A program made the position numbers and the translations under genes. From Jaenimonas drosophilae (taxonomy: Eukaryota; Euglenozoa; Kinetoplastea; Trypanosomatida; Trypanosomatidae), in contig JASAON010001645.1 of assembly GCA_030849065.1 (NCBI GenBank), positions 62,001-126,000 of the forward strand: 64,000 nucleotides of DNA, written 5' to 3'. Of this stretch, positions 3,502 to 59,400 are shown one piece after another. Position 1 is the first letter of the stretch; each line of letters begins with the position of its first letter. Below the pieces are notes generated by a model that saw nothing but the letters and a program-made list of their open reading frames with translations, did no database searches and was not told the DNA's origin.

Positions 3502-5067
3502 ATGCACCGCAAGAATGTGCCACATGATCATGACTCACCACCGTCAGATGTGCCGCTAGACGCGAGCCCAACCTCACGCATGGTATTATCCTCCACGGAG
3601 GAGGAGAGCGAGGGTGTGGCATCGCAACAAACGCCTCGTTTCTTTATTCCCCGGCCAACAACACGTCGGTCTGACCGAAGCTCAGGATCAGCGCGGTTGA
3701 GCGCCGATGAGTGTGAGTGCACCACAAGTTCAAGCATCTCCTCCTGCCCTGATGATGCCTCGGAGGAGGCAGAGCGTTTGCGTTTGATGGAGAACTCACT
3801 CACGTTGGCCCTCAAGGCGGATGCAGAAAATGATGCGCGTACCAACGTGCCCTTCGAGATCACGGAAGAGACCTTCCCCATTCCACGCCAGTGTTGTGAC
3901 GATGATGTGGCAGGTGGGGCGGGAGGGTGGCGGCCTGGGAGCAAGTTGCGCATTGCATACCTCACCTGGAACATGGCCAGCCGTAAAGCGCAGGAGGTGG
4001 AGGTGGCGCAGCACTTTATCTTCCCCAATGCCCACATTGTGGTGGTGGCCACACAAGAGAATGGGCCATATGTTGGCTCCAACGACAAGCAGCGTGAGTG
4101 GGAAGCCATGGTGAGCAACGTGTGCCTGCGACGCAAGTACACCTGCGTGCAACAGACCTGCCTTTGTGCGCTGCACTTGATGGTCTTTGTGCGTAAGGTG
4201 GATGTGCTGCCCTACATCACCCGTGTGGAGGTGGGGTCGGTCAAGACTGGATTCCGTGGGATGCTTGGCAACAAGGGTGGTGTTGCCGTGGCCTTCTCCA
4301 TGGAGGTCCGTGCACCCGGTCGAGCCACCTCCTCCATCAGCATCTTGTGCATCAACGCCCACCTCGCTGCGCACCAGTCGCACGTTTCACAGCGCAATGA
4401 CGATTATAGCAAGATCGTGGAAGATATGAAGGTGGGCCGTCAAGGAGAGCACTACGCCTTCTTCAAGGGGTGCCCCAACGGTGGTGGAGGTGGTGGGGCA
4501 TCCTCCCCGGTGTCATCCACCTTGCCACGAGCCACACCGAGTGAGGATGGTGTGGCCTTGATGAGGCTCCCATCCAGCCCAACTCCGGCAAGCAGCCCCA
4601 ACTTCATCACGGGTCGCGATGTTACGACGGAGTTCGACGTCGTCTTCTTTGGTGGCGATCTCAACTACCGCCTCAATGGCACCACACACGCATTGCAGCA
4701 CATCCTGAACAACGAGTTGGCCGTGCGGTCGGTGCTGACCTTGCATGATCAGCTCAACCTGGAACGTGCCCGGGGCCTCGTCTTCCGCGGTTTTACGGAA
4801 GGGCAGCTCCACTTCAGGCCCACGTACAAGTATGAGGTCCAGGAAATACGCAAAGGTTATAAACGCACCCTCAACACCTATGTGAACTCCATCACAAAGC
4901 CACGACTGCCATCTTACTGCGACCGTGTGTTGTTTCGGTGCAACCACGCTCAGGAGCACCTCTCGTTGCTGTTGTATACCGATGTACCTCAGGTACGAAC
5001 AAGCGACCACCGCCCCGTGGCGGCGCTCTTTGAACTGACTACGAACAGCTTTGTGGAGAGAGCCTAA
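3502..5067 (+). CDS. Inositol polyphosphate 5-phosphatase
   Basis: A 521-residue protein with a disordered, Ser-rich N terminus (1-150) followed by a complete IPPc catalytic domain that removes the 5-phosphate of inositol phosphates or phosphoinositides. Motifs in order: W156-N157 opening the domain, Q185-E186 (metal-binding Glu), GNKGGVAV at 256-263, NAHLAAH from 285, the GGDLNYR signature at 384-390, PSYCDRVL near 473, and TSDHRPV at 500-506 containing the catalytic Asp/His. A Gly/Ser-rich insert (about 325-375) lies between NAHLAAH and GGDLNYR. No membrane segment or CAAX box is visible, so membrane targeting is unknown. Substrate specificity cannot be read from sequence. Start ATG 3502 follows a pyrimidine-rich leader. 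Confidence 0.93.
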   Translation: MHRKNVPHDHDSPPSDVPLDASPTSRMVLSSTEEESEGVASQQTPRFFIPRPTTRRSDRSSGSARLSADECECTTSSSISSCPDDASEEAERLRLMENSLTLALKADAENDARTNVPFEITEETFPIPRQCCDDDVAGGAGGWRPGSKLRIAYLTWNMASRKAQEVEVAQHFIFPNAHIVVVATQENGPYVGSNDKQREWEAMVSNVCLRRKYTCVQQTCLCALHLMVFVRKVDVLPYITRVEVGSVKTGFRGMLGNKGGVAVAFSMEVRAPGRATSSISILCINAHLAAHQSHVSQRNDDYSKIVEDMKVGRQGEHYAFFKGCPNGGGGGGASSPVSSTLPRATPSEDGVALMRLPSSPTPASSPNFITGRDVTTEFDVVFFGGDLNYRLNGTTHALQHILNNELAVRSVLTLHDQLNLERARGLVFRGFTEGQLHFRPTYKYEVQEIRKGYKRTLNTYVNSITKPRLPSYCDRVLFRCNHAQEHLSLLLYTDVPQVRTSDHRPVAALFELTTNSFVERA

Positions 5068-31348: not shown

Positions 31349-31349
31349 T

Positions 31350-31421
31350 CATCCGTGACAGGATTCGAACCTGCAACCCTCTGATCCGTAGTCAGATGCT
31401 CTTCCATTGAGCCACACGGAC
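31350..31421 (-). tRNA. tRNA-Arg (anticodon ACG)
   Basis: Read on the - strand, a full 72-base cloverleaf: acceptor GTCCGTG pairing with CACGGAT (first pair G-U), D stem GCTC/GAGC, anticodon stem TCTGA/TCAGA with loop CTACGGA (anticodon ACG, codon CGU and, with inosine, CGC/CGA), and T arm GCAGG-TTCGAAT-CCTGT. Internal A and B boxes are intact and a T-run follows. Confidence 0.95.
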
Positions 31422-31479
31422 ACATTAACAAACAAAAGATGAAAATTGCAAATATTATTGATTTCTGGATGAAAAGGAA

Positions 31480-31563
31480 TCCTTCCGGCCGGAATCGAAC
31501 CAGCGACCCTGTGATACCTGCTATCTCTACAGTCACATGCTCTACCAATTGAGCTACAGAAGG
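31480..31563 (-). tRNA. tRNA-Tyr (anticodon GUA) with an 11-nt intron
   Basis: Read on the - strand: acceptor CCTTCTG/CGGAAGG, D stem GCTC/GAGC, anticodon stem TGTGA/TCACA, T arm GCTGG-TTCGATT-CCGGC. Between the anticodon stem halves are 18 bases (starting CTGTA) instead of 7, so an 11-base intron lies just 3' of the GTA anticodon. This matches trypanosome tRNA-Tyr, known as the intron-containing tRNA of these organisms. It ends with an A discriminator. Confidence 0.95.
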
Positions 31564-31636
31564 TTCTGAAAAACCTGTTTTTTGGAATTATTTAAACAGA
31601 ACTTCTTGTGATTATTCAGCAAACTGTGCTTATGTG

Positions 31637-31708
31637 TTCTCGGTAGTATAGTGGTTAGTATACCCGCCTGTCACGCGGGTGACCCGGGTTCAATTCCCGG
31701 CCGGGAAG
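31637..31708 (+). tRNA. tRNA-Asp (anticodon GUC)
   Basis: A 72-base cloverleaf on the + strand: acceptor TTCTCGG/CCGGGAA with one G-U pair, anticodon stem CCCGC/GCGGG with loop CTGTCAC (anticodon GTC), and T arm CCGGG-TTCAATT-CCCGG, with discriminator G. It is divergent from tRNA-Tyr, 73 bases away. Confidence 0.96.
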
Positions 31709-31709
31709 C

Positions 31710-31715
31710 TTTTTT
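31710..31715 (+). terminator. Pol III terminator of tRNA-Asp
   Basis: A T6 run starting two bases after the discriminator base of tRNA-Asp. Confidence 0.85.
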
Positions 31716-33060
31716 AACTACTCCGAATTTCTGCCCCTCCCACCGCGTCTAAATTAAGAGGTGTGCCGCGGAACGGTCCCGGGCGTAACCCCCACCCGTT
31801 CGTGTTTCACCCCCTCGGGAAAACAAGACGCGAATTCCATACATTGCAACGGTGGGTTTGTTAATGGCCTTGGATTTCCACCAAGAAGTTGGTGGCCAGC
31901 AATTGGCCTTTCGCCACCCGCGAAGCCGCAAGGAACAACCATTCGAAACAATACGCAGCTGGAATGATATGCGTCGCGAATTTAAGAAGAACTACAACTC
32001 TTCCGCGGAGTTGTTTTGGTAATGCTTTTCGTGGTGAGACCCAATTCCTCCCAAACAATCCCGGGAATCCGGGCCACCCCCCCCCAAGGCAGCCATCAGA
32101 AGCCGAACCCCGCCAGGGGAATTGAAGACCGCCAGCGCAAGCGCAGAAGCATTCCCCGACAAGCCCGCCGGCTGTTAAACAAACGAACGGCCTTTGCAAA
32201 TCACATAGCAGCGTAACTTTCCTCGATGCCCCTGGATCCCGCAACCGAGAATGCTTTCCAGCCGCGCGGGGCGGGTTTTCTATGTTCTACAGAATCCGCG
32301 CCAGGTCCGCTTTGGGGTGGTGGGGTTTTCGATTTCCGCGTTGCGGAACGTTCGCGCCGCCCCATGCTTGGGCACCAACAAATCCCGCATAGTTGGCGTT
32401 GGCGGTGTGGTTGCAATGCGGCGCGCTTTGGGGGTTTGGCGGCCCCCCCAATCCCCCATTTCAGATTTGCGTTGGGAAGGCGCGTCGGCCGTTTAATTTC
32501 GAGGTTTCGTGCGCGCGCGCGGGGGGGGGGGTTGATTCCGGCGGAAAAGCTTTTTTCACCGGGCCCGTTCCGCGTTTGGAGGATGGATTGCCCCCGATCC
32601 TCTTCGGCAAAATCGTGCGCAAACTGGGCGGGTCCTTGGTTTGGCGCGGGGGTATGCGGCCCCCCCCCTGTTCAATGTTTTTGTGGGTGTGTATATTGGG
32701 GGGGGGGGGGTTATCCATGGTGTGCGATTCCCGTTTCTTGGCGTTTCGTGGCTGCGAACCCCCCTCGGGGGGGGGGGGGGGGGTTGTGCTTCTCTTTTTG
32801 CGGGCGGCGGGTTGTGTTTTTTCGACGATTTGGATTTCCACTTCTTCCCGGTTCCAGAATAGGGCAACCCCCGCAAACAAGACGAGGAGCCCATGCAACC
32901 CCGAAGCAATATCCCACGCACGCTTGGTTCGCCGGGCGAATTTGTGATGTCTGTTTGGTGCTTCGCTGGCGGTGCTTGCCATTGGTGGTGAGCTCCGTAG
33001 GCATTGGGTGGTGATATTGATGCCGCGGAGCATTCTCTGTGTCCTGAATTGTGTTTTGCG
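31716..33060. other. Homopolymer-rich, probably unreliable sequence
   Basis: No gene is supportable. The segment is crowded with G and C homopolymers found nowhere else at this density: C9 at 32077-32085, G11 at 32521-32531, C9 near 32660, G13 at 32698-32710 and G17 at 32767-32783. Doubled short motifs are also frequent. It reads like low-quality base calls or a poorly resolved repeat. Open frames of 120-260 codons here are composition artefacts. Confidence 0.6.
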
Positions 33061-35240: not shown

Positions 35241-38200
35241 ATGCGGATTCACATCAAGTTTGGTGACACGAACCATGTGGTAGAGATCTCAACAGATGCA
35301 ACCCTCGGAGATTTGAGAGAGAAAGTTCGAGATGCTACCAGGGTACTTCCGCCGATGCAGAAACTGCTGGGAAAGCCAAACCTTCAAACAAAACCGGAAG
35401 ATTCTCTATTATCAGAGTTGGGAATTCGTGATGGGACAAAACTTATGCTAATCGGAAACCAAGTTGCGGATGTGGTGGAGGCAAATCGTGCATCGGCAGT
35501 TGAGCAGCAGCATGAATCCAAACAAGTTCAGCTTCGGCTTCGCCTTCCTCATCACGTATGGATGCTTTCTCCGTACGCTTCTGCTCTTGCGGATGCGTAT
35601 GTTGATGGCCGTGGCGCCCCTTTGGAAGGAGGTGGTCATCTCCTCTCCCTCCTTGCCCTCGACCTTATTTTGACGCGCATCAATCGACTGGGGGTTGCTT
35701 CGACAGCGGGCTCCGCCCAGCTCCTTGCTGCTATGGGGAATGAGGGGGCAGCACAGATTCGTCATCCATTTCTGGCTTCTTTTTCCGATCAGCACAGCGT
35801 TGCCCTCCAGTACGTACACCGTATTGTTCGACGGTGCTATGAATTTACCGCCGCTGCTACCGGTGCTCAGGAGCCTGGGGCCATTCGAGAGGTGGTGGAT
35901 CGTTGCATCCGTGATATTGATAGTCTCTCGGTGGGAGAGTGGCTGTTGCTTCCTGCGGGATGGGTTGGTCAAACGTCGTCCAACTACTGTTTTTTGTTAT
36001 TGCATCGCGTGACATCCGAAAAATACACAGTTGTCGTGATGAATCGTGGACGTGATGGACAAGAGTACCATCCGCGGTGGGCAACCGCTGAGAAGATCCG
36101 AGTATCCCCAATTCTTCACGTTGATGGGGTGCACCGGGAACGTGTTGTTGATCACGGATTCTGGCTTACACTCCTATCTCTCTGGATGCGTGGCAACGAT
36201 CCACAGGATCAATCCGAGTTTATTCGTGCTGAAGTGTTTTACGATGTTTTGCTCCCCTGGCTTGTTGAGCATGGAGCTCATCAGGAAAATTTTGAAACGA
36301 GAGGAGCTTCCGAGGCGCTCTTTCCATGGGCAGCGGATGCAACCGCCACTGCAGCTCCCTATCCGAAATCAGTTACCCAGCAGGGATGTAGCACCATTTG
36401 CAGTGCGTCTAGCGCAATGAAAGGAGCAATGACAGCAGCTTGCTTTCTCGCAGGCCGGCTAGGAGAGATGACTCCTGCAGAAGTGAAGCAGCTGAAGTTT
36501 GCTCTCAAGTACGAGCTGTTCGTCCGTGCAGCGGAGGATGTGCACAACTACGCCAAGCGATTTGTGGTCAATGAGTCGCTCTCTTTCCCCAGCCGCGTGA
36601 AGTCCGTCCCAGGGTCGTTGACTCAGGATGGTGCATCCAACGTGGTGGACCAGCAGCGATTATGTCGAGCGATGTCATCATTAGTGGCTGCAGGGGTAAA
36701 AGATACCGCCTCTGGTATAAACCTACGAGATGTCTTATCAGCTGCTGGCGAACAAGGCGTCGTTCTCACGCAAGCTAATCATGTACTGCTCTCCACTGAT
36801 TCCTTGATGAACAAAATGGTGTTCGTCTATATCGGTTCTCTCTCTGTGCCTGAATGTGCTACCTTCACTGCGCTGGTAGCTGATGTGGTACCCTGTTTGG
36901 CCCGTGCTGTGCTGCGTGGAGCCCCACCCGTGGAGATTCTATTTGTGAGCGCCGACCAAACTCGGGAACTCTATGACCAGCATGCGGCGATGCTTCCGTG
37001 CTCACGGGCGGGCTTTTCTCCAGTTGCTCTCATTCAATCTCTGGATTGCTCCAAGGTACCTGAAATGATTGCCTTTGGCCCAGATGGGGCATTACTGCAC
37101 CGAGATGGGGTTCAGGCTCTACGAGCTGACCCAGAGGCACTTCTTTTCCCTCATGGACCGTGGAGGGCAGCCAACCCCCTCTCCGCCACAGACGTGCGCA
37201 TGTTAGAGGTAAGTTCAGCACAGCTAGCCCATCACACCAACCGCCGCCTATCAAACGGCGCGATCACTGAGGATGTTGGCCAGCAGATACTACGCCTCGT
37301 TGAGGCGGTGAAAGACGTGGTGGACGCGTTGCCTCAAGATGACATCCGCGACTGGACATCAACCTCAGCAACAGGTCGACCCAACGACGCCCACAAATCT
37401 CACGGGAGCAGCGACTGCATCGAATCTCAAGATCCAACTTCGCTCGACACTTTGCTCACTTCCACTGTGCTTAACAGTAGGGACAATGGGTACCCTGAAT
37501 GCAGTCTACTCCCAACTGTGTCTACAGCACGTTACTGTGGGAACCTATTTCACACAACTCCAGGCACTGCTGATGACCTAACTGAGCTTACAATTCCTCA
37601 GAGTTTGCGCGACCTGCATAGAGTGCTGGTGCATTGCAAAATGATTGTTTCACGTCTGTGGGCTCGTGCCGGAGATAGCGGCACCTCCTCGCGCGTAGCA
37701 GTTGAGATGCAGCTAATCGAGTTCATTTCGTGGGCCTTTATGGAACTTATACCCGTTCCCGGGGTGGGCACGGGGGCAACTGTAGGAGCCGACCCCCTTG
37801 GCTCGGCTACCAGGTCCGTTAGCGCCGACTTCTATGAAACCGATAGCTTCGAGTGGGCTCAGCTAAGTGCGGAAGAAGACCCGCAATTGGAGACACTCGC
37901 TGCGATACACTACTTACTGCTCTCTTTCGGGAATGCCTGGCAGGCAGTGGAGACCCCATCCCGCAGTGCCGATGCCGAGCGATGCTTGGTTTCCATGGAG
38001 ATGCTCCTCGTCTTTGACGCCGTTGTTCGTCAGGTGAATGGCAGTCGTGGGGGTCAGCAGCTGGCGCTGCTGCTAGCCAGTGACGGGGGCTACTATCTGT
38101 CCACCACATTAGGAAAACGCAATCTACCCTTCGCGACGGTAGCAGCCTCACTGGAGCTGACCCGCCCACGCTTGCTTCTGGTGCGGGCCTGTATGCTGCG

Positions 38201-41200
38201 CTATATTAACCACCAACATGCTTGCTTTCAGCACGAGCTCTACGATCTCCGAATGCCTGACAAACTTGAAATTCGTCGAGGCAGTCGAACCATTACTTTT
38301 CTTCGAACATTCATGGATAATCTTGGATATTCTATTGATGATGCCGGTGGCCAGCGCGGGGCTCAGGGCTCAGAAATGGAGAAGTTGATGGAATGGCTGT
38401 GCTCTGATCGGACGCCCCTTGCCTCAAAGAATCCTGAGTTTCTTCTCGTTCGAGATGTCGTGCTTTTGGCTAAGTTTTTGGGGACGATGGAGCGGCGCGA
38501 GGCGCAGCTTCTAAACAGGCGGAAGGAACTTGATCACTTTGCGAGCTGGCGCATCTGCTTTGAGGAAGACACACCCGGTCGTCAAATGAGTGCGGGATGG
38601 CGCACTAGTCCCACTTCGTTACAATGGGAGTGTTTGATGGTGCGAGGTCGGGATTTGGATGTGGCAGATATTACGGTGCATGGCTTCGGGAGACGTGAGC
38701 TTCTCTATGGAGAGGGTCTGGTTCTGTGCTCCCCGATTGATGTTGGTCGTCTACTGGGGATTGACCGGCCCACAGAGGATGATGTGCTACACGCTCGTCA
38801 GCTCCCCAACTTGGGAGGTGGTACGATGAATATAGAGGAGGTGGAGGTGGTGTTAAGCTGCTTGACTACCCCCTATCTCCGTATACCACTTCTGCTCGAC
38901 TTCTTCAGCACGCAGGACCGTCACACCTACTTGTTTCTCCCTCCAGTTCAGGCTCTCTTGCGGGCGGTGCTCTTTGAGCCCGCTGACTTTGTGCTCCCCG
39001 AACGCTTGCTGCAGGCTGACCCGAGAGAGGTTCCAATGCGCCTTAGCGCTGCGCAGCGAGAGGAGATAGAGCGACAGCACCTCCACGGGGACTTCCATCG
39101 CCATATTGATGAGGATTGCCTGGGCACTACCTATGGCTTGCTCCTGAACGAACTGGCCAATGCTCCTTCAACGGTACTACAGCCTGTGTCACGATTAGTG
39201 GATTCAGTGAAGGAGCTAGGCCCAAGCTCTGTTTACAGCGCCAATGCTAGCTACGTTCTCTTTGTGGTGGAACTGGTGACGGGGGTACTGAACTTCGTTC
39301 GATTTTCTGTAGAGCACCGCACCTCGTCCGAAGTGAGTACAATGCATCACTTCCATACGGAGCTGCTTCAGTCCCTAGAATCCGTTGTGCTGCCTCTACT
39401 GACCGCATGGCTGGAGGAGAGTGTGGGAAATCTTGATACCCCATCGCAGTGCGTGGTCTATGCCTACCAGAGTATGGTAGTGCGAGCGCTGTGGAAGGGA
39501 GCCGTGCTGAACCTGGGTGGGACCTCTTCTTGGGGAGACGCCTCCAACCTTCCCACTGTTGCTCGTCACATAACGCGCTTGCTTCGGTGCAGCGCCTTTG
39601 TTCGTGCACGCCACGGCTTTGGCATGGGCATGCAGCGAACTCAGTTGGCGGCGCAGGAGGGTGACAACGAGCTGAGCGCGGAGGACAAGCTGCTTCGATT
39701 TCTCCAAGCGCATGGACTCAATACTTCACGTGCCACACCTCAGCTCTTGGAACAAGGCAAGCAGCTCATGATGAGCGGCGGCCGTCGCCGCGCGGTTTTC
39801 TTACAAATTATAGGCCAGCATACACGTGATACGGTTCGCTTGCCCAATCTCTTCCGAAGTGATCCCAGCAGCACGACGGAGTCCAAGCGCCTCAAGCTTC
39901 CTCCAGCTGACCTCCCCGAGCTTGAGCTTTTCCAGGTGTTACACGAGGATCACAGAGATATCATGTCGTGGATGGAGGGCCTATCATCCGAGGACTTGTC
40001 GACTTTGCTCAGCAGTGTGGTACAGACTGTTCTCTGTGATGTGGACGGTTCCAGCCCCACCAGTTCAGGGCACCTCACCAGTCACGGCAGCTCCTCTGGT
40101 TTTGCACATTTTGACGCCACTGCAGAGGAACTATGGACGCGTGAGCAACCTGGCTGCTACGCGAGCAGCTCTAGAAGCGGCCTTGCATTCCATCTTCAGA
40201 GTTGCGAGCTGTTTTGGCATCATGATGAATTGCGACCTGTGCCTGATAGCATGTCTCACTTCACGGATTTTGAGAATATTTTGGGCAAAGACCTTCTCCA
40301 GTGTGGCCTAGTTAGCCGTCACGAGCACCGCCATTGGGTCCATATTGTTGGAACACCATATGACGTTGTGGAGTGGACCTCTCCACCAGAAGCAACCGAC
40401 CAGGGCGTCCATCATCCCATCATTCTAAGCGGGGACTGGCCGGGAGAGATGGCTCGTAGTGCGGCCTTCGAGGGCGACATTTTTGACCGACCGGTGGAAG
40501 TTATGAGCCCCGATCCATGGCCGGTGAGGGCGGAGCGGTGGGCGGTCGAGCTGGTGAAGTGTGTATATGCGGCATCCTACCCACATGGTGTTCAATTCGC
40601 TCCACTTGCGATGGCCCTCCCCGAGGATACGACAGGGGCAACGGAGACTGAATGCGATGAGATGCATTTTCTGTACAACGATGCACCGCAGTACCCCAGG
40701 AATCCAGAGAATGCCACGTGGAAGGAGATCGTCGCTTATCGGCGCCCACAACCACACTTTCATGTTTTCAACCTGGTTCCACATGCCCGAAAGATGTATC
40801 GCTCTTTGGTCTACAGCACCAATCAGCGATTGTGCTTGCACAGCCTGGCTTTGATGGGACGGGAGCGGCGGCGCGATGCACTTCAATCGACCGCCTTCGT
40901 TGCGGGTGAACTGAAGCGTCGCATTAGCGTTGATACCACTCTTGAAATCCACAGGCATAATGCAACTCTCGGTGGCCGGGAGACGTACGTACCTGCAGCT
41001 CTGTTGCAAGGGTTGGTGCCAAGTGCGCTTCTCGAGGCTTTTTATATTTGGCAGGGCGACGACGATCTCTTGCGTGGATATCATATGCCGCAACAGCGCA
41101 ACGCCTTGTCCGACGCCGCGCTTAGTGCACCTGAGAGTGAGGAGCACGATCACTGGTTCAATTACAGCGTTGAAATCCACTTGCGGGGAACGGGTGAAGC

Positions 41201-44200
41201 ACAGAGCCTTTCGCATTGTACTGTGGTTCGCCGCAACGATCGCAGTTATACCCCAATTTCTCAGCTCGGAAATAGCACAGAAGGGGTTGTTGGCGCAACT
41301 TCGTCCATGAGTGAAGAGGCCGCTGACCCAGCTCTCATTGCACTGTTACACCGTGCCATGCCGCACATTCCGCAGGCTGTCTGCGCGGCCATTCTTGAGC
41401 GCAGTAAGGCGATGGACATCGCCGGGGCCATCGCTTGGGCGCGAAGCTCCGATCACCAGGCGGAGGTGGAGGCCTTAGTTAGTGATCATCGTCTTCCCGA
41501 AGGTGCCAATCACGTGGCGGCAGCACCAGGAACCAGGGCTGATGACCTCATCTTGGTTAATCTCCTCCAGTGGCCGCACCTCGCCCCCTTGTTGGCAATC
41601 CTCACTCAACTCGAAGACTGCTCGCATGTGTTAGTGTGGGCACGACGATGTGCGTCCCTCTCTCTGGGCGATCAATTGTCAAAGACAGTGGTGACGTCGG
41701 ATGAATCCGGTGGGGAGGGAAATCTATACATTGACCACATTGATCTCCCCCGTCTTCGTGCACGCTTTGAAGTGCGTCGAGATGGTGCAAATTCTCGGCT
41801 TCGGATGTTCCTTGCTGACCAGCCAGGCTGGCGGTTGGCAGAGGCCGATGATGCTGGTGCGTGGTCAGCACCTCGTCTCAATGTACTTCGAGCACCCTTT
41901 CAACAGTGTGTGGTTCTGGTGAACAGCACGCATGAGACGACGCTGCTCGTTCCCAACCACGACTTCTCGCCTGTGGAAGTGCGAGAGGACCCGTTCTGCC
42001 CATTGCTGCTATTCGACCGGTCGTCCTTCACCTGGCGCGAGGCAGTGCCATCTCCCTTTTACCTCTACCCCGTACATCCCAGCCACGGCTTCCTTCAGCC
42101 GCCAACTCTGGCTGCGTCGCTGTACTACGCTGTCATGCAGTGTGCAACGCAGCACTACGTGGGCGCCATTCGTACATTGGAGGCGTGCTACACCGACTGC
42201 CCATTTTCTGCAGAAGAAGCCTTTATGGCTGCACTCTTCGAGCGGACGATGACGGACCGATTTCCCGATGCCCATGCTGTGCGCCTCAAGCTTGCCCATG
42301 CTGTCCAGTACAGCACCAACACATATGAATGGCCTCTTGTGGCTGAGCTTCACGGATACCTCGAAAAGAAGCGCCACGTTCGGGCGGATTGCCGACTATC
42401 GCGAAGTGAGCTGGTGGAGGTGCTCAAGCGCTGCGATAAGTCATCACCGCTCCCTAAAGCACAGTTGGAGCTATTGGCGGCTTTGATCCGGGCAGAGAGC
42501 GCGGCGCGGCGAGTGGATGGAGATATTCCAACCTCCTGCACAGCCATCATTGGTACCCCATCGCTGCAGCGCTGCGGTCATCCATGGGAGCAACTGCTGG
42601 TCACCCGCTGGGAACATATATCGCCGCAGAAATTGAAGCGGCTGACGTTTCGGTTTGATCCCAGCCAGTTGGAGGATGACGCGTTGGTGAGCTTTATTTG
42701 GGGAGACAAGCTTTTGTCGGATGAGGAGAACGGCGGCAACCGCAAGCTCGGCTTCTACTTCTTGTATGCTCTGCACAAGCAGCACGTTTCCCTCCGTCTC
42801 GGTGAGGCTGACGTCACCTCCACATTGTCGCAGTTGTGGAGTCGTTGGTTCCATCTTCGGCACGCACGATGGGGTCGAGAGGCCGCAGCGGGCAATGGAA
42901 GCAGCTCCGAAGACTCGACGGTACCACCGTCATGGAGTGCAACTGTGCTTCAGTTGATGGAGCTCTTCCCCACTGCAGCATGGCCCGCCATGGCCCCACC
43001 ACAGGAGCAGTTTGTATTGGCGAACGGTATCAATCTTCAAGCCTCTGCAATGGATCGCGATGGCCATCCGATTCAGAATTTGCAATTTGCCCAGGCCCGC
43101 CGAAGCACGTTCCCTGACCTTTTCGAGGCGATCCATCATGTGGCACGAGAGCTTCATACAATTAGCTCATTCACTGAGATGCGCCGGGTACAGATACAGG
43201 CAAGCTGGAGGCGTATCCCAACAGAACGCGATATGGCGGTGCACATGTATGATCATGTACGAGGCCGAGTGCTACCCCAAAACTCCGCGCTGACCTCCGT
43301 GAGCTTGGGGGAAGCCTCGCTGGGCCACTCCTCTCTGGGCCAGCTTCTGGGGCAGCGACCAGGCGGACTGGGCCAAACCCTGATTGCGCTGTGCGAGGAG
43401 CCCATGGGGGAGCTTCAGCTCCTTGGGCCTGTTATTCATGTTAGCATGCCGGAAGCCGTGAATGAGGAGGAGAGCGGGCAAGACGGTAGCGAGCCCTTGC
43501 CATTTGATTTGCGGCGGCACCACCTTGCTCGACCTCCCCTCGCCCAGGGCATGCTTGACCGTCTCTCAGAGGATGCTGCTCGGTACCAACACGAGCAGCG
43601 TCACACGGTACGCTATACCCTTTGCTGCCTCTCTGAGAAGGCTGTTGAGTCTCTCCTTACGAGCCCACAGGACAGTGAGGTGCAGGATGCCCTAGCGGAG
43701 GCGTGGACCGCTGTCCAGGAGATCGTTGATCGCTGCACACAATTGGGCAAGATGGATTCTGAGGCCGTCGAGGTCGCCACGCGCTCTGTCTTGTCAATGG
43801 CCAACCGTCCTGCTTCCACGGAGGAAGCTGACGCTTTGAGTGTGCTGCGCCATCGTCTGCAAGTGGTTTCCAAGGACTGCACTAACGTCACACTGGAGTG
43901 GCTGTGTGGGGCAGCGCTGAGCACCGAGCTCGGCTCTGATCTCAATGCCATTAATCCCCACCACGGGCCGGTGGAGGCTCTTCGAATGGAGTTAGTCATG
44001 CTGATGTTGCTCAGCAACCGCGTCTACTTCTGTGAGCAGAGTGTGGCCGCGGCTCAGAGCCTCCTCCTGTTTTTGGAGCTCTGCGGACTTCTCCGTGGCC
44101 ACAGAATCCCTTCCGAGGCATCACGTGATGAAGAGTCGGAAGCTGGATTCCGTGTGGGGCTCCGCCAACGTGTTCACGAGCTCGTCCAGCATTTCTCGCT

Positions 44201-47200
44201 GGAACTAGCACCAGATGACCTCCTGCAAGCGGATGGGAGCATCCTCTCTCTCCCGCAGAAAGTGGTGGAACTGCTGACGAGTAGATTGCATCAGCTGCAG
44301 CAGGTATTGATGGATGTGCTCACAGCTAGGCGTCACTATAGCGCGAAGGAGGCAGAACATGTTGTGGCAACCACGACACCGGCAGGAGTGGTGGAAGCTG
44401 TTTCCCGCACTGTGGACCCCAGATTTGTGCTTTTCGAGTTCGTCTTCAACATCATGCTACGTGCCAGACAAGTGGAAATGGTACGCTGGTTTGTTGCTAA
44501 CCTACAACAGGGCCAGTCACGGGTGCAGCAGATGATCATGGGACAAGGAAAGACCACTGTGGTGGGACCGTTGCTGGCCCTCATTTTGGCAGATGGAAAG
44601 CAGCTCGTGACGCAGGTCATGCCAACTGCTCTTCTGGAGCAAACCCGCGGCATCTTACGCCGGTGCTTTAGTGCGGTCCTCGTCAAACACATCTACACGC
44701 TCCAGTTTGATCGGAGTATGACCGATGGTGGCGCTGCGGGAGGCGGAGAGGATGGAATTCATCTTCTCTTTCACAAGCTGAAGTCAGCGGAAGAGGATGG
44801 CTCCGTCGTGATCGCTGCTCCTGAGTGCATCAAGGCAGTCTTCTTGAAGTGCATGGAGCAGCTTCACCTCCTTGAGTCTGTTTCCACTTCCGATCTCGAG
44901 GCTACCTTCGCCGTGGATGAACGTGATTCCTCGCACCGCGTCGCCCTGCGGGAGACAACAGTGGAACGAGGGCGGGTTGCCGACGCCATCTTCCCCATCC
45001 TGGATCTGTGGCGCCGCGGTGTCTTGATGATGGATGAAGTGGATGTTCTCTTGCATCCTCTGCGGTCCGAGCTCAATTTCCCCATTGGCATGCGCCATCC
45101 CATGGACATGAGCGGGCCGCGATGGCGTCTCCCCATGCATCTGCTAGATGCGATGTTTTTCTCAAAGCGCGGACGTGCTTGCGAAGATCCTCAGCGGCAC
45201 CTCACAGGAAGTCCGGGTGGAGATTGGGAGATGGGCAGCTCAGAGGACCCTCAGCGGCAAGAACTCCGGACTGCCACTCTCCGTCGCATATCAGAGGTGA
45301 TTGACGAGGGCTTTGCGTGTCGAGCACTTCAGCGAGAGCCACACTTGGTATTGCTCGACCCTCAGTTCTACCATGATCGTTTGCTCCCCGCGCTGTTGCC
45401 GTGGGTGCAGCTGTGGCTATACGAGTACTATGATTCGGAACTACCTAAGCAGGTGGCTGCTCGCTCGGGGATCTGCACGTGGGAGGTGTTTCGCAGCCAC
45501 ACGGACGAGTTCCTCACACAGCCTCGCATTTGTGGAGGTACTCCAGTTGCAACGTACTTGAACCTTCACCTCCCCGCTGATGTCCTGAAGTTACTCGTGC
45601 TTGCCCATGACTGGCTGCACCGACTTCTTCCTCACGTGATCGCCAAAATTGACCGCGTCAGCTTTGGTGTGCTGCAGCCCACAGACCTCGCCATGACGGA
45701 GTCGGCCACTGATGGATCTATGCCCTATAGCCGTCGCATGATGGCAGTCCCCTTCGTTGCCAAGGATGTGCCCAGTCGTTCATCCGAGTTTGCTCATCCC
45801 GATGTTGTTCTCGGTCTCACTATCCTCGCATTTCGTTATGAGGGCCTCAGGAAGTTGGATGTGCATGCGCTGTTGGTGCAGCTCAAGCAAGACTTTTCCC
45901 GTCAGTCAGGCCCCAAGGCTCATCGACCAGCTGCCAAGTTGTATCAGCACTGGCTGCGGCTGAGCTCATTGGAAGCTCTGCCCGTTGATGAGCACGGAGC
46001 TTCGCATCGACTAGAGCAAGCTGGAGTTCCACTCTCTCAGCTTCAGTTGTCAGATCACGAACAGATGGATTCCTTGTGGCACTTGCTGCGCCGGGTGCCA
46101 GAAGTTGTACATTACTATCTCTGCTCCTGTGTCTTCCCACGAACCATGAACTTTCAGCATCTCAAGGTGAGTGCCTGTGGGCATGAACTTGGCAGCTCGT
46201 TGTTGTTTACGAGGAGACTGGGCTTCAGTGGTACACCAAGTAGCTTGCTGCCCATCGACTTGGGTGAATGCCTGTACGAACCTGGGAGTGATGGCCGCGT
46301 TCTCTCCGTTCTCACGAACCCACACGTGGTGCAGGTGCAGGACCTCCCTGAGCAGTGGACGCCGCTCCACCTCCTGGACCGCATCGCTGCCGCCCAACCG
46401 TCCTTCTCTGCCCTCATTGACGCTGGTGCCCTCATCACGAACATGCGCAATGATGAAGTTGCCCGATACCTCTTGGCACGCCTCCCGAGCGCCTCCTTTG
46501 ATGGCGTGACGTACCTGGATAACCAAGATCGCCAAATGATTGTGCTGCGTGCACATGGTCTCGTGGTACCTGTGGCACAGTGCGGAGTGCCACTATCACG
46601 ACGATTTACCTTTTTTGATCAAGTACATACGACAGGCACGGACGTGAAGCAGTGCGCGACAGCAACGGCGGTTCTGACCCTCGGAAAGGATCTTGTGTTC
46701 CGAGACTACGCTCAGGCAGCCTACCGCATGCGCGGTATTGGCCGCGGCCAGAAGCTCTGCCTATACCTGATACCTGAAGTCCGAACTCGAGTGGAGCAAG
46801 TCCTTGGTGAGGGCTTCCGAAGTGGGGACCTTCTGAGGGATGTTCCAGCCTGGTTGCTCCTCAATTCGATGCGTGTGGAAGGCATGCAGTTCCACAAGCT
46901 TTCCCTTCAGGAGGTGGCCAACGTGTGGCGAAAGAAGGCTCTCCGCAATTTGGTTGCGGATGCTACCTACGCTGCGTCCCACGCTGACCTCTTCAATGGA
47001 TTCCTTCGCAGTAGACGTTTTCAGCTTCCACGTCCCGCTTCTGCGGTGGTGAAGGAGGACTTTTCTTCGCTGCCTTCTGTTGCCGTACTGCAGCGCTCGA
47101 TTCAGGAGTTCCGAGAGAGCATTGACTTCCCACTGCCTTCCACGATCGCCACCCCTCCAACGCTGGCCGATCAGCTTCATCAGGGAATGGCAGAGCGACC

Positions 47201-49028
47201 GGCGGAGCTTCTGGAGGGCGATGACGCAGCCCATTCTCTGGTGCAGCGGCTGTTGGACCGCATGCTGGCGGCCGTTCACCTTTCCAGCACCACTGATGGA
47301 GAGGCTCGCCACGAGCTTGACACCATGGATCTCAACGCGGAGGTGGTTCACGAGCAAGAGGCCGAGCAGGAGCAGGAACAAGAGGCCGAGCAGGAGGAGC
47401 AGAAGGTGATGGACTTTTGCCGCGATGATGAGACCCAGATACCGTGGTCCATCAACACCTTACGCAGCTGTGGGGCTGACGCGGAAAAGACACGCCAGCC
47501 CAGCGGTGGCTCCTGCTTCTACCAACTACGCTCTATGCAAATACGCCCCACTCAACCTCAGCTTGCTGTGGATGAGCACTACCTACTCAGTGACAACTAC
47601 TTCCGCAGTCAGTGGCATGGAGTGGGCGAGAGACGCCTGAAGAATGCCTTCATCTTTGTGGAGTGGGTCCCTGTGGATGCCCTCGTTCCTCCAACTGGCG
47701 AGGCAGACGTGGCCTTGACATCCACCACAACTGGACATGTTGTGAATCGGGCTGACAACCTTCTTGCTGGTTTGGTGACGTTGGCAGAGGGAGAGACTTT
47801 GCGCTGGATGCTCCATCACAGTGCCTACGTCCGAGGAAGCCAGGGGCTCGCGCTGCGATTTGTCAGCTCCGGCAGGTATCTGGACCGCACCGCTCTTTTT
47901 GCCACCATGATTCCACACCCTAGCAGTACGCCTCTTCCTGAATCAAGAGAAGTGGCTGGGAATGTACCCACACGTCGGTCATCCTCCCTTCCCCCATCCC
48001 CCGCAGCATTGCTGTTCCGATTCCTGAATAATGACATGTACTACTCGGAAGCGGAGCTGCGGACTCTTGAAGGGGCCCTTGCTGGGGTTCCTCCTTCAGA
48101 CCGTTTGGAGTTCTTTGTGGAGTGTTTGCGTCTACGACGGCGACACCGCAACCACTGGGAGGATGCCCCCATCGCGGCACTCTTTGTGCTCCCCGAGGAC
48201 AAGCCTTTTCTGCGTCAGATCACGAGAGCAAAGCGCATGCAGCTGGTCCTGCGCGAGGCCGTGGAGGTGCTTGTTCGACCTGTGGAGAGTCTGTCGGCTG
48301 TGGAGAAGGAGCGTGCGACACGCATGGATGAGCGCCTCCACAACTTTGCTTTGCGGGTGAGTGAGGTGCGGATGCAGGGCGATGAGGAATCCGGCACGGA
48401 GGAAGTTGTCCTTGCTCGGGATCTCTCCGAGCTCCTTCTTGATTGCTTTTCCGGCATTCTTGGTGGCATGAGTTCATTTGATGTGCAGCAGGCCTTGCTT
48501 GCCGTTGCCGCCGCCGACTCGGCAGGATTGGAGGCCATCTCACTACTGAAGTTTTTTGACGCATTCCCCTCCCTCGATTCGGCACATGTAGTGGAGTGGC
48601 GTGCAGCGGCCATGTCGCTAGCCGGTGGAGCTTCCAGAGGCGCCCACTCCGCTCCTCTCCCGTGGAATTGCCCCACCTGCACATACCTGAACGATCCCTC
48701 CACCTCCATGTGCGTCATGTGCATGGTTCCACGACCAGGAGGCGCACCCAAGGAGGAAGATGGACCGTGGCAGTGCACGTCCTGCACATTTATCAATGAG
48801 AGCCGACAGATGCAACTGTGCTCTGTGTGCCTAGCCCCCAACCCAAGCCCACTTCAGCAGGAGAAGGGCACCATGGATGATTTGGGGATGGGATCGTGGA
48901 CATGTCCTGAGGGCTATTGGACCTGTGCTGTGGAACAGGGCGGCTGCAGCAAGTTCAACCTCAATTCTTTCTTTTACTGCCAGGTGTGTGAGAAGGCACG
49001 CCCAAATCTCGCGAGTATTCGTTTTTGA
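35241..49028 (+). CDS. Giant 4,595-residue protein: ubiquitin-like, tryparedoxin-like, DUF3638-type P-loop, RanBP2 zinc fingers
   Basis: The frame opens at a TTG 13 codons earlier, but ATG 35241 begins a ubiquitin-like domain (about 1-75: MRIHIKFGDTNHVVEIST, ending DGTKLMLIGN). Residues about 513-645 resemble a tryparedoxin/nucleoredoxin fold (KMVFVYIGSLSVPEC, VEILFVSADQT, PEMIAFGPDGAL, DPEALLFPHGPW) with the WCPPC active site reduced to SVPEC. About 2030-2068 looks UBA-like. The family core is at about 3060-3300: QQMIMGQGKTTVVGPLLALILADGK (Walker A, GQGKTT from 3101) and LMMDEVDVLLHP (Walker B, 3262 on), as in fungal and amoebal DUF3638/DUF3645 proteins. A Glu/Gln-rich segment lies near 4034-4058. 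Three RanBP2-type zinc fingers begin at about 4475, 4510 and 4560 (WxCxxC...CxxC). The fingers and ubiquitin-like start suggest a ubiquitin-linked ATPase; real function unknown. Confidence 0.82.
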   Translation: MRIHIKFGDTNHVVEISTDATLGDLREKVRDATRVLPPMQKLLGKPNLQTKPEDSLLSELGIRDGTKLMLIGNQVADVVEANRASAVEQQHESKQVQLRLRLPHHVWMLSPYASALADAYVDGRGAPLEGGGHLLSLLALDLILTRINRLGVASTAGSAQLLAAMGNEGAAQIRHPFLASFSDQHSVALQYVHRIVRRCYEFTAAATGAQEPGAIREVVDRCIRDIDSLSVGEWLLLPAGWVGQTSSNYCFLLLHRVTSEKYTVVVMNRGRDGQEYHPRWATAEKIRVSPILHVDGVHRERVVDHGFWLTLLSLWMRGNDPQDQSEFIRAEVFYDVLLPWLVEHGAHQENFETRGASEALFPWAADATATAAPYPKSVTQQGCSTICSASSAMKGAMTAACFLAGRLGEMTPAEVKQLKFALKYELFVRAAEDVHNYAKRFVVNESLSFPSRVKSVPGSLTQDGASNVVDQQRLCRAMSSLVAAGVKDTASGINLRDVLSAAGEQGVVLTQANHVLLSTDSLMNKMVFVYIGSLSVPECATFTALVADVVPCLARAVLRGAPPVEILFVSADQTRELYDQHAAMLPCSRAGFSPVALIQSLDCSKVPEMIAFGPDGALLHRDGVQALRADPEALLFPHGPWRAANPLSATDVRMLEVSSAQLAHHTNRRLSNGAITEDVGQQILRLVEAVKDVVDALPQDDIRDWTSTSATGRPNDAHKSHGSSDCIESQDPTSLDTLLTSTVLNSRDNGYPECSLLPTVSTARYCGNLFHTTPGTADDLTELTIPQSLRDLHRVLVHCKMIVSRLWARAGDSGTSSRVAVEMQLIEFISWAFMELIPVPGVGTGATVGADPLGSATRSVSADFYETDSFEWAQLSAEEDPQLETLAAIHYLLLSFGNAWQAVETPSRSADAERCLVSMEMLLVFDAVVRQVNGSRGGQQLALLLASDGGYYLSTTLGKRNLPFATVAASLELTRPRLLLVRACMLRYINHQHACFQHELYDLRMPDKLEIRRGSRTITFLRTFMDNLGYSIDDAGGQRGAQGSEMEKLMEWLCSDRTPLASKNPEFLLVRDVVLLAKFLGTMERREAQLLNRRKELDHFASWRICFEEDTPGRQMSAGWRTSPTSLQWECLMVRGRDLDVADITVHGFGRRELLYGEGLVLCSPIDVGRLLGIDRPTEDDVLHARQLPNLGGGTMNIEEVEVVLSCLTTPYLRIPLLLDFFSTQDRHTYLFLPPVQALLRAVLFEPADFVLPERLLQADPREVPMRLSAAQREEIERQHLHGDFHRHIDEDCLGTTYGLLLNELANAPSTVLQPVSRLVDSVKELGPSSVYSANASYVLFVVELVTGVLNFVRFSVEHRTSSEVSTMHHFHTELLQSLESVVLPLLTAWLEESVGNLDTPSQCVVYAYQSMVVRALWKGAVLNLGGTSSWGDASNLPTVARHITRLLRCSAFVRARHGFGMGMQRTQLAAQEGDNELSAEDKLLRFLQAHGLNTSRATPQLLEQGKQLMMSGGRRRAVFLQIIGQHTRDTVRLPNLFRSDPSSTTESKRLKLPPADLPELELFQVLHEDHRDIMSWMEGLSSEDLSTLLSSVVQTVLCDVDGSSPTSSGHLTSHGSSSGFAHFDATAEELWTREQPGCYASSSRSGLAFHLQSCELFWHHDELRPVPDSMSHFTDFENILGKDLLQCGLVSRHEHRHWVHIVGTPYDVVEWTSPPEATDQGVHHPIILSGDWPGEMARSAAFEGDIFDRPVEVMSPDPWPVRAERWAVELVKCVYAASYPHGVQFAPLAMALPEDTTGATETECDEMHFLYNDAPQYPRNPENATWKEIVAYRRPQPHFHVFNLVPHARKMYRSLVYSTNQRLCLHSLALMGRERRRDALQSTAFVAGELKRRISVDTTLEIHRHNATLGGRETYVPAALLQGLVPSALLEAFYIWQGDDDLLRGYHMPQQRNALSDAALSAPESEEHDHWFNYSVEIHLRGTGEAQSLSHCTVVRRNDRSYTPISQLGNSTEGVVGATSSMSEEAADPALIALLHRAMPHIPQAVCAAILERSKAMDIAGAIAWARSSDHQAEVEALVSDHRLPEGANHVAAAPGTRADDLILVNLLQWPHLAPLLAILTQLEDCSHVLVWARRCASLSLGDQLSKTVVTSDESGGEGNLYIDHIDLPRLRARFEVRRDGANSRLRMFLADQPGWRLAEADDAGAWSAPRLNVLRAPFQQCVVLVNSTHETTLLVPNHDFSPVEVREDPFCPLLLFDRSSFTWREAVPSPFYLYPVHPSHGFLQPPTLAASLYYAVMQCATQHYVGAIRTLEACYTDCPFSAEEAFMAALFERTMTDRFPDAHAVRLKLAHAVQYSTNTYEWPLVAELHGYLEKKRHVRADCRLSRSELVEVLKRCDKSSPLPKAQLELLAALIRAESAARRVDGDIPTSCTAIIGTPSLQRCGHPWEQLLVTRWEHISPQKLKRLTFRFDPSQLEDDALVSFIWGDKLLSDEENGGNRKLGFYFLYALHKQHVSLRLGEADVTSTLSQLWSRWFHLRHARWGREAAAGNGSSSEDSTVPPSWSATVLQLMELFPTAAWPAMAPPQEQFVLANGINLQASAMDRDGHPIQNLQFAQARRSTFPDLFEAIHHVARELHTISSFTEMRRVQIQASWRRIPTERDMAVHMYDHVRGRVLPQNSALTSVSLGEASLGHSSLGQLLGQRPGGLGQTLIALCEEPMGELQLLGPVIHVSMPEAVNEEESGQDGSEPLPFDLRRHHLARPPLAQGMLDRLSEDAARYQHEQRHTVRYTLCCLSEKAVESLLTSPQDSEVQDALAEAWTAVQEIVDRCTQLGKMDSEAVEVATRSVLSMANRPASTEEADALSVLRHRLQVVSKDCTNVTLEWLCGAALSTELGSDLNAINPHHGPVEALRMELVMLMLLSNRVYFCEQSVAAAQSLLLFLELCGLLRGHRIPSEASRDEESEAGFRVGLRQRVHELVQHFSLELAPDDLLQADGSILSLPQKVVELLTSRLHQLQQVLMDVLTARRHYSAKEAEHVVATTTPAGVVEAVSRTVDPRFVLFEFVFNIMLRARQVEMVRWFVANLQQGQSRVQQMIMGQGKTTVVGPLLALILADGKQLVTQVMPTALLEQTRGILRRCFSAVLVKHIYTLQFDRSMTDGGAAGGGEDGIHLLFHKLKSAEEDGSVVIAAPECIKAVFLKCMEQLHLLESVSTSDLEATFAVDERDSSHRVALRETTVERGRVADAIFPILDLWRRGVLMMDEVDVLLHPLRSELNFPIGMRHPMDMSGPRWRLPMHLLDAMFFSKRGRACEDPQRHLTGSPGGDWEMGSSEDPQRQELRTATLRRISEVIDEGFACRALQREPHLVLLDPQFYHDRLLPALLPWVQLWLYEYYDSELPKQVAARSGICTWEVFRSHTDEFLTQPRICGGTPVATYLNLHLPADVLKLLVLAHDWLHRLLPHVIAKIDRVSFGVLQPTDLAMTESATDGSMPYSRRMMAVPFVAKDVPSRSSEFAHPDVVLGLTILAFRYEGLRKLDVHALLVQLKQDFSRQSGPKAHRPAAKLYQHWLRLSSLEALPVDEHGASHRLEQAGVPLSQLQLSDHEQMDSLWHLLRRVPEVVHYYLCSCVFPRTMNFQHLKVSACGHELGSSLLFTRRLGFSGTPSSLLPIDLGECLYEPGSDGRVLSVLTNPHVVQVQDLPEQWTPLHLLDRIAAAQPSFSALIDAGALITNMRNDEVARYLLARLPSASFDGVTYLDNQDRQMIVLRAHGLVVPVAQCGVPLSRRFTFFDQVHTTGTDVKQCATATAVLTLGKDLVFRDYAQAAYRMRGIGRGQKLCLYLIPEVRTRVEQVLGEGFRSGDLLRDVPAWLLLNSMRVEGMQFHKLSLQEVANVWRKKALRNLVADATYAASHADLFNGFLRSRRFQLPRPASAVVKEDFSSLPSVAVLQRSIQEFRESIDFPLPSTIATPPTLADQLHQGMAERPAELLEGDDAAHSLVQRLLDRMLAAVHLSSTTDGEARHELDTMDLNAEVVHEQEAEQEQEQEAEQEEQKVMDFCRDDETQIPWSINTLRSCGADAEKTRQPSGGSCFYQLRSMQIRPTQPQLAVDEHYLLSDNYFRSQWHGVGERRLKNAFIFVEWVPVDALVPPTGEADVALTSTTTGHVVNRADNLLAGLVTLAEGETLRWMLHHSAYVRGSQGLALRFVSSGRYLDRTALFATMIPHPSSTPLPESREVAGNVPTRRSSSLPPSPAALLFRFLNNDMYYSEAELRTLEGALAGVPPSDRLEFFVECLRLRRRHRNHWEDAPIAALFVLPEDKPFLRQITRAKRMQLVLREAVEVLVRPVESLSAVEKERATRMDERLHNFALRVSEVRMQGDEESGTEEVVLARDLSELLLDCFSGILGGMSSFDVQQALLAVAAADSAGLEAISLLKFFDAFPSLDSAHVVEWRAAAMSLAGGASRGAHSAPLPWNCPTCTYLNDPSTSMCVMCMVPRPGGAPKEEDGPWQCTSCTFINESRQMQLCSVCLAPNPSPLQQEKGTMDDLGMGSWTCPEGYWTCAVEQGGCSKFNLNSFFYCQVCEKARPNLASIRF

Positions 49029-56484: not shown

Positions 56485-59400
56485 ATGCCACCGAGGAGAA
56501 AGCGCACAAAGGTGGAAGCTGCCGCTCAGATTGCGTCTTCTTCCTCCTCCATCACTGTGGATGCCAGCTCCACGAGGAGCTCCGTCACGGTGGATGGCGA
56601 GGTGGAGCCCTCCCATCCAAAGTCCCCCGCCACCCTCGCCGTGGAGGTAGTTGCGTCGGATGAGGATTCAGACCACCTCTTCGAGCCACCAACCACTCGT
56701 CGGAAGCGCCAGCGCACACTTGACGGGGGAAATGCGAATACTCCACCACGGAAGGCCCCTCCCGTCCATGGACGTGGCCAAAGAGAAACGCCTCCTGCTG
56801 CTGTCACATCTTCTGGTGGCGAGCTCCTGCCATCACGAAAGACCTCTTCAACCTCTTCTCCGGCCTCATCCGCACCACTTCCCTCCTTTTCTGCAGAGGA
56901 GCTAGAGGCTGGGCTGGTACAGCAGCTGCGGCAGGCAAATCTCCTCGCTGCGCTAGACAGGCGGGACATCTTCACCACGACCTATGAGGAGTGCCTCCAT
57001 GGAGTTGATGCGGAGGATGATTCTGAGGCGGATGAGGGTGTTAGGAATCGCACTTTTCGTGCACCCCAGGCGTGGCCACAGCAGGGAGACATAGCCCACT
57101 TCAGAATGGCCTTCCCCTGTGTGCAGCGCTTCATCATTCGCGAGTGCCAACGAGTGGCACGTCGAGCCCTGGATGAGGATAATGCCACGAGTGCGATTTG
57201 CTACGCCTCTCCAGAGGACGCCGCCAGGGAGATGCTGGGCTTCTTCACCAACCTTCTCAGTGAAAATGATGGAGGGCTGATGCTGCTGCTCTTCCTCAGC
57301 TGCCCTTCGTGCCGCTGGGCAGGTGCTGAGGTGATGACGGAGATGATCGGCCTCTACGAACTCCTGGCTCGCTCTCACCGCTATGAGCCCTCTCGTCACC
57401 CGTGGCTGAAACCTGAGGATCTGATTAGTTCCTTCAGCTTCACTGGAACTCATGACGAATCATGTTCGTGCCCATTCGGGGGCTCACATAGTCTTATAGC
57501 CTCATTGCTGAGGAGTAGCATGGGCTCAGTCGTGGTGAATGTCTCCTTCGCGTCCCTCCGGGATGTGCTCCCCATGAATGAGTGTCTGGCCGTTTACAAG
57601 GAACGGGTGAATCAGCTGGATCGCATCCTGCGAAACAAGCCTCCGCCGAGGCAGTCCAAGAAGAAGTCACCTCCCGCACCACATACTCGATCCCTTTTGG
57701 CTGTGCTGGACGGCATCGTGAGTAGTGAGGAGCGACTTGAAGGTTCATCGGCATTCATCAGTTCTTCATTTGATGAGGACGTGAGGACGGTCATGGATAC
57801 CTTGGTGCGGCGGAAGATGCTCTTTGATGTGACGATCCGGGTACGTTCAGAGTGTCAGCGCTGCAGCATTCAACAGGGCTCGCTTCGGATTGATCCATGG
57901 CGGATAAACGTGGAGAGCGCCATGCTGCTAATGCATGTGGGCAATCACGTGGCGCTGTCCTTGGACCGACATCAACCACAAAGCTGCCAGTGCTCTTCCA
58001 CCCCGATGGATGTCTCCACCACCGAGGGCCGTGAGTTGTTCGCCATGATTGAGTTCCACGATGCATACCTGATGAAGCTTCGTGCATGTCGTGCTGAGAT
58101 GAACTCCATCGCCGTGGAGAGGACAGAGCATGATACGAGGCAATCCTACGCTGCAGGCTCGCATGAGCTCTTCCGCCAGCAGGCGTTGAGCGTGCAGGGG
58201 ATGACGGTTCGAGACATTGTTTCATTTGCGGCTGCGTGCAATCCTGATGCGGAGGATAATCGTGATGAAGGCTCCGTGAGGCCGCCCCCGACCATTCGTG
58301 CTTCACTTCACCCCCACCAACTGGAAAACCTGGATCAGATGCTGGCTCGCGAGGAGTTCGGCAGCACAGAGTATACGGAGATACCGGTGTGGTCCCCTCC
58401 AATGTCAATGAAGGGAGATGCCATTCAACGTGGCACCTTCTTGTACTGTGCGGCGGTGGCAGAGTGCATTTTTTTTCCCCCATTGATTCCGTCCACCCGA
58501 CGAGTTGTGGAGCTCCTCCGTGCGCCGCGGCGCGGTGGGATGCTCTGCGATGATGTTGGCCTGGGAAAGACGCTCACGGTGCTGAGTTTGTGCGCCTTGG
58601 ATCGGGCGTCGGCGGAGGAGGCAGGTGCCGTCTCCCCGACCGGTGCGGAGCGGAGTTCAGCTTCTGCTGGCTCCACATACTCATTTGCAGAGACGAGCGA
58701 TCCAGCAGCCCTTCGTCACTGGCGGGTGAGATATAAGCCGAGCTCCTATGGGGTCGCGTGCGATGTTGGCCATCTGTTTGAACGCCAGATGAGGTCGGTC
58801 TTGATGCGTGCTGAGAAGGTACCACTGCGTGTCCTTCCGCGCACAACGCTCATTGTCATGCCTGTGTCTATTGTGGGGCAATGGGCAACGGAGATTGAGC
58901 GGTTCTGCCCGGATAGCCGGTACATCATCTTCCACGGCAACAAGCGACTGAGATACACTGCGGAGGATTTTTCACAGGCGGACTTTGTCCTCACAACCTT
59001 CGAGACGCTCGGGGGGCATCTTCGTGCGGAGAGCGACCCGGTTGGATGGATGGTGGAGCAGTTCGGCCGGGAGGCAGCTGGGGTGGGAGAGGATGGGAGG
59101 CGTCACATGGATCGTTGGCGTGCGGTGCAGCACTTGGCCGAATCCATTTTTCCGTCTGTTCCTGAGATCAGCGAGGGCGGTCTTACTTTCGAGCGTATGC
59201 AAGAGGCGTCGCCTTTCGTATGGCAGATGAAGAACTCAGCCAACGGCGAAAAGATCTTCACGTGCTCGTATCTCCGTGTGCGGGTCAATCACGAAGGCCT
59301 AGGCCGACTCTCCAGACGCAACTTGCACTATTCTGGCGAGTTTCTGGATAATCTGATTGAGCTGTTGCTGGGCATCGAATCTCCAGTGGCCGACGCCATG

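Follow-up and report, generated by a model that had tools for sequence, protein, structure and literature searches.

A giant DUF3638/DUF3645 protein of the trypanosomatid Jaenimonas drosophilae combines a predicted SecA-like motor layout with ubiquitin-type domains

Introduction

Proteins carrying the Pfam domains DUF3638 and DUF3645 (PF12340/PF12359) reach about 5,700 residues and range from kinetoplastids to choanoflagellates. No function is given for them in the papers that we retrieved with DUF3638, DUF3645 and accession terms, which agrees with a preliminary description of the locus studied here, whose author knew of none. A 2025 Tetrahymena paper calls the mechanism of a DUF3638 protein undefined (PMC12615304), and DUF3638 is also mentioned in PMC5423893. 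Here, we report on a member of this family from Jaenimonas drosophilae, encoded by an open frame of 4,595 amino acids (aa) from its ATG, at 35241..49028 on the + strand of a 64,000-nucleotide stretch of contig JASAON010001645.1 (hereafter, the window). The open frame, motifs, predicted folds, conservation patterns and lost residues described below were all established by computation, and every feature of the protein is given with its window coordinates on that strand.

The described systems with which parts of this protein compare best are SecA, the bacterial preprotein translocase ATPase, the tryparedoxin/nucleoredoxin proteins, and the Legionella effectors LegA15 (AnkD in PMC9757750, PDB 7ew8) and AnkH/LegA3. 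LegA15 is reported to be a GTPase that relies on Cys361, Gln356 and Lys367, in which H268A has little effect and N290A a mild one, while C361S retains binding and loses hydrolysis (PMC9757750). Related effectors are treated in PMC11423584 (LegA7) and PMC6712400 (AnkH), alongside PMC3482391.

Results and Discussion

Both Pfam domains of the core score over their cut-offs, DUF3638 at residues 3058-3304 (E 1.8e-26; 93.3 bits for a cut-off of 31) and, downstream of it, DUF3645 at residues 3496-3527 (45726..45821; E 4e-15; 55.3 bits for a cut-off of 25), so that the core with Walker A/B motifs anticipated by the preliminary description is present. According to Pfam, the structure model and structural matches, a first RecA-like lobe (part of DUF3638) extends over residues 3030-3287 (44328..45101) and holds the Walker A motif GQGKT (3101-3105; 44541..44555) and the motif II DEVD (3265-3268; 45033..45044). 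Residues 3637-3863 (46149..46829) comprise motif III (GFSGTPS) and a second RecA-like lobe that carries HTTGTD and RMRGIGRGQ, followed by a predicted long helix and helical part (residues 3864-3994; 46830..47222; model range to 1094) that the SecA alignment also covers. Walker A, DExD, motif III and motif V/VI, i.e., the motifs of superfamily 2 (SF2), hence occur in order over two RecA lobes, and they are strongly conserved in the family, with DEVD and the arginine-rich motif VI among them.

Between motifs II and III, at the position of the preprotein domain of SecA, lies a predicted helical insertion (residues 3288-3636; 45102..46148) that contains DUF3645, its helices being modelled between the strands 3278-3287 and 3637-3645. 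The distance between the two motifs is 398 residues, compared to 176-186 in SecA (59 of 66 sequences, the other seven being left out by the motif-distance script for want of one exact string) and 31-33 in DEAD-box proteins (n = 5); among the 73 relatives measured, one outlier (P0116, 1813) was kept. Such a large domain at this site is a SecA trait, and two programs rank SecA first among the structural matches of the core, with a lead of 3 Z units and the better E-value, in an alignment that takes in the whole motor fold with the helical scaffold after the second lobe. The Jaenimonas core nonetheless differs from SecA in its low identity (12%), in an insert of about double the length that is predicted to be helical, in the lack of a Pfam SecA domain, with no SecA_DEAD (PF07517) match in the giant protein, and in forming part of a chain of 4,600 residues that also bears ubiquitin-type domains. 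When the core, with and without the insertion, was compared by hhalign to 66 SecA sequences, their preprotein domain being either included or removed, probabilities of 0.5-0.8 were not significant, and we therefore make no sequence-based claim of kinship with SecA. Profile comparison with 11 other SF2 targets (among which L102 and L097 are, from the look of their sequences, presumably PriA-type and RecG-type) and with a second SecA-like locus described below (L002) gave nothing significant either. On the strength of the predicted structure, the core thus looks like an SF2-type ATPase motor of SecA-like layout, i.e., two RecA lobes, an insertion of ~350 residues and a helical part after the second lobe. 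Neither this resemblance nor the LegA15-like one discussed below was found mentioned for DUF3638 proteins in the literature searched, whose long result lists were covered in part.

Of the 1,427 candidates scored in a sequence search with residues 2950-4000, 224 proteins reached E <= 0.001. The 120 listed comprise proteins of Leishmania, Leptomonas, Trypanosoma, Bodo, oomycetes, Monosiga, Thecamonas, Pelomyxa, Hondaea and Durusdinium and many unnamed proteins, the nearest named relatives among these matches being from Leishmania and Leptomonas (core identity 58-60%). A further search, started from a distant relative, found 316 proteins (120 listed), and a search of the protein database with the N-terminal domain found three proteins of 293-414 aa. 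The sets of 121 and 168 proteins used below consist of these listed matches, and lineage counts drawn from them are no census. In an alignment of 75 sequences (with 74 relatives of at least 3,600 aa), conservation spans residues ~750 to 4300 and also appears near both ends, well beyond the Pfam core. It includes a conserved middle (residues 750-2950; 37488..44090) with an unassigned fold and without any Pfam match at E <= 1; as structure prediction covered the two ends of the protein, the absence of this middle from the structural match lists proves nothing. An NCBIfam scan of the giant protein gave one uninformative match (E 0.59). Since the assembly (18.8 Mb, 370 contigs) holds a single DUF3638 match, the locus is single-copy, and family matches were found in 0 of 14 control genomes.

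When 11 diverse relatives were scanned with Pfam (E <= 1), DUF3638 and DUF3645 were found in all 11, RanBP fingers in nine, Thioredoxin_8 in seven, UBA_7 in seven and UBA in six. The arrangement, which the preliminary description suspected to be undescribed, is not peculiar to this gene but shared by relatives, in which thioredoxin, UBA, DUF3638/DUF3645 and RanBP fingers co-occur. The gene is an ordinary single-copy member of a conserved and widespread protist family, in its kinetoplastid form, which departs from the general family pattern in an added N-terminal ubiquitin-like (UBL) domain, a degenerate UBA slot and the loss of both enzyme-like sites. Other elements of the preliminary domain list held, with the exception of the UBA, but the list had overlooked the LegA15-like domain, the SecA-like motor layout and the missing active sites of the two enzyme-like domains.

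The UBL fold occupies residues 1-76 (35241..35468), as had been proposed for residues 1-75. Residues 1-70 are modelled at a block pLDDT of 85-94 and match the UBL of Dsk2, ubiquitin-type Pfam models match within residues 1-74 below cut-off, and sequence search and predicted structure agree on a beta-grasp fold. The domain ends in KLMLIGNQ, with no C-terminal Gly-Gly for conjugation, and is thus a built-in domain rather than the precursor of a conjugated tag. The earlier suggestion that one chain may both display and read ubiquitin signals serves as a lead only. A profile built from eight UBL seeds, which themselves belong to proteins that it later recovered, matches 23 of the 121 listed proteins, N-terminally in 22 cases (21 kinetoplastid-like, including Leishmania, Leptomonas and Trypanosoma, plus P0026). 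The remaining match is internal (P0048, residues 2700-2758) and points to repeated gain or relocation of the UBL. Fingers are thus mostly joined to DUF3638 in the relatives scanned, but an N-terminal UBL is not.

At the other end, three RanBP2-type fingers are present as first described: finger 1 (residues 4474-4500; 48660..48740; CTY type), which Pfam recognises as a RanBP finger under its cut-off (E 3.3e-5), finger 2 (residues 4507-4534; 48759..48842; CTF type) and a variant finger 3 (residues 4559-4588; 48915..49004) of pattern C-x6-C-x10-C-x2-C. Fingers 1 and 2 follow the NZF pattern W-x-C-x2-C-(T F/Y)-x-N-...-C-x2-C, and ubiquitin binding by NZF fingers goes with a T-F rule. Three C4 patterns are found in 18 of 18 proteins that are kinetoplastid-type or P0026 (of 22 proteins examined), the first of P0015 not being NZF-like; there are also three in P0080 and two each in P0086, P0103 and P0097. 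In a single-sequence search of the PDB, the best finger matches are TAB3, RBCK1-type, NPL4 and TAB2, ahead of Nup153; we take the fingers of TAB3, NPL4 and TAB2 to be ubiquitin binders.

Upstream of the fingers, a Glu/Gln-rich stretch (residues 4034-4055; 47340..47405), noted earlier as a spacer, is present in 9 of 9 relatives inspected and is a recurring family element. Farther towards the N terminus, residues 2036-2078 (41346..41474) agree in position with the UBA of other lineages, and a UBA-like stretch had been proposed there (about 2030-2068). A profile derived from the UBA of relatives (18 seeds) has no match in the giant protein, which rules out a recognisable UBA and leaves the position alone in agreement; among the 22 kinetoplastid-type proteins, the same profile gives weak matches only in P0013, P0014 and P0016 (E 0.2-0.33).

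What could such a protein do? Ubiquitin-linked handling of proteins by a SecA-like SF2 motor is, in our opinion, its most likely job, albeit a tentative assignment that falls short of probable. The fingers and the built-in UBL would recruit the motor to ubiquitinated clients or ubiquitin receptors, the RecA lobes would close and open with ATP hydrolysis, and the insertion would grip a polypeptide, to be pulled or unfolded, while the cysteine-protease-like domain and the tryparedoxin, their catalytic residues lost, would serve as binding modules. That this machine hydrolyses ATP, binds ubiquitin and has polypeptide (rather than nucleic acid) as its substrate is what we infer. Weighing against it, a profile search of the PDB with the family alignment (A5, eight sequences), which retrieved fingers and no helicase or SecA, puts those of Nup358/RanBP2 and Nup153 first, which are not ubiquitin binders, and this slightly lowered our confidence. 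The main rival, possible but in our estimation rather unlikely, is an RNA/DNA helicase or translocase, using its SF2 core as RIG-I, DEAD-box or PriA-like proteins do, with fingers that would bind nucleic acid or provide a link to ubiquitin signalling. Against this rival stand the structural ranking of the whole core, which favours SecA, the large motif II-III insertion, which is absent from all five DEAD-box controls measured, and the recurrence of ubiquitin-related domains in the family.

The N-terminal region brings further alternatives. By predicted structure, residues 101-483 (35541..36689) adopt the fold of the LegA15/AnkH cysteine protease-like domain, in a structural alignment that spans residues 101..700 at 11% identity. 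A tryparedoxin-like fold (residues 493-646; 36717..37178) is apparently inserted in it, supported by Pfam (Thioredoxin_8 at 524-617, E 8.6e-7) and by fold matches, in line with the thioredoxin-fold segment first noted; two predicted helices (residues 649-696; 37185..37328), included in the span of the LegA15 alignment, seem to complete the interrupted fold. In contrast to LegA15 and AnkH/LegA3, the Jaenimonas domain thus has a thioredoxin insert, has lost the His and Cys of the triad, and has no ankyrin match in Pfam. N268 and H277 are kept, but the triad His and Cys positions read N248 and S391. The His - Asn/Asp - Cys triad is found in 10 of the 115 proteins with the domain, and Cys in 11 of the 111 relatives having a letter at its position, whereas 102 of 112 keep Lys/Arg at Cys+3 and 113 of 113 keep the His of YHP; 53 of the 168 listed proteins have no match to the domain. 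Searched against the PDB with a profile of four sequences (A7), it retrieves 0 chains at E <= 10, and the link to LegA15 is consequently one of structure plus the motif pattern taken from the paper. Likewise, unlike tryparedoxin/nucleoredoxin, the insert lacks CxxC, with SVPEC at the site and one Cys of the pair left. CxxC lies near the domain start in 34 of 86 thioredoxin-bearing proteins by a crude rule (within about 60 residues of the match start; the match of P0009 begins past the active site). Judging from the sequences, triad or CxxC is intact in some other protists. In P0097 and P0109, a WCPPC thioredoxin stands before the LegA15-like domain, not after it, and in P0093 (second copy) and P0101 a thioredoxin stands near residues 1400-1700; at sequence level, this domain seems to have moved within the family.

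As for LegA15, the N-terminal domain might be a GTP-binding or switch module controlling the motor. The shared fold and the retention of Lys/Arg and the YHP His despite the frequent loss of Cys would fit, but the Lys appears, by sequence position, to lie at Cys+3 here and at Cys+6 in LegA15, and, by the behaviour of C361S, the domain would not hydrolyse GTP; we find such a module improbable. We regard as equally doubtful that the chain is a non-motor scaffold, its ATPase inactive or structural, serving as a large assembly platform, e.g., at the cell cortex: its great size, its two enzyme-like domains without sites and, among the fold matches, a thioredoxin-like protein from the cortical microtubules of Toxoplasma (7miz) would suit this, while the conserved SF2 motifs speak for a working motor. 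Finally, a deubiquitinase or Ub/UBL protease acting through the LegA15-like domain, as implied by the automatic UniProt name of many family members ("ubiquitinyl hydrolase 1"), is hardly credible given the replaced triad residues here and in most relatives, the absence of papain- or ULP-type Pfam matches and the reported GTPase activity and weak His and Asn mutant effects of LegA15 itself.

One separate SecA_DEAD match was found in the same genome (L002; G000:C7:847-1341, - strand), in a 2,175-aa open frame, far longer than E. coli SecA (901 aa); the contig end cuts the locus. L002 matches PF07517 and the SecA profile (Prob 98). It resembles the giant gene as a large frame with a SecA-like motor, but it is recognisable by sequence and absent from the DUF3638 matches of the genome.

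Within the window, downstream of the giant gene and on its strand, 56485-61614 (+) encodes a 1,709-aa SNF2-type helicase whose lobes flank a RING finger, another ubiquitin-type SF2 protein, which we take to be Rad5/HLTF-like. Upstream, tRNA genes lie on both strands at 31349-31953; ARAGORN and Rfam agree at two places, which ARAGORN types as Arg(ACG) and Asp(GTC), but the third is put at 31480-31563 by Rfam and at 31860-31953 (Ala) by ARAGORN. A 647-aa protein at 15838-17781 (+) matches DUF5393 (E 3.1e-36), a family of unknown function.

Conclusions

The SecA-like core and the effector-fold N terminus raise two questions: is it polypeptide or nucleic acid that is moved, and is this a host machine imitated by effectors? 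In a joint and frankly speculative reading, which we deem unlikely as a whole, DUF3638 proteins would be an unrecognised ancient eukaryotic class of SecA-type motors, ubiquitin-guided translocases or unfoldases equipped with a ULP-like protease domain that would still work in some protists and be dead in trypanosomatids; the LegA15/AnkH domain, injected by Dot/Icm bacteria into protist hosts, would have been copied from that N-terminal domain or mimic it, and would act by imitating or blocking the host DUF3638 machine. A ubiquitin-linked motor beside p97/Cdc48 would widen the known eukaryotic uses of ubiquitin.
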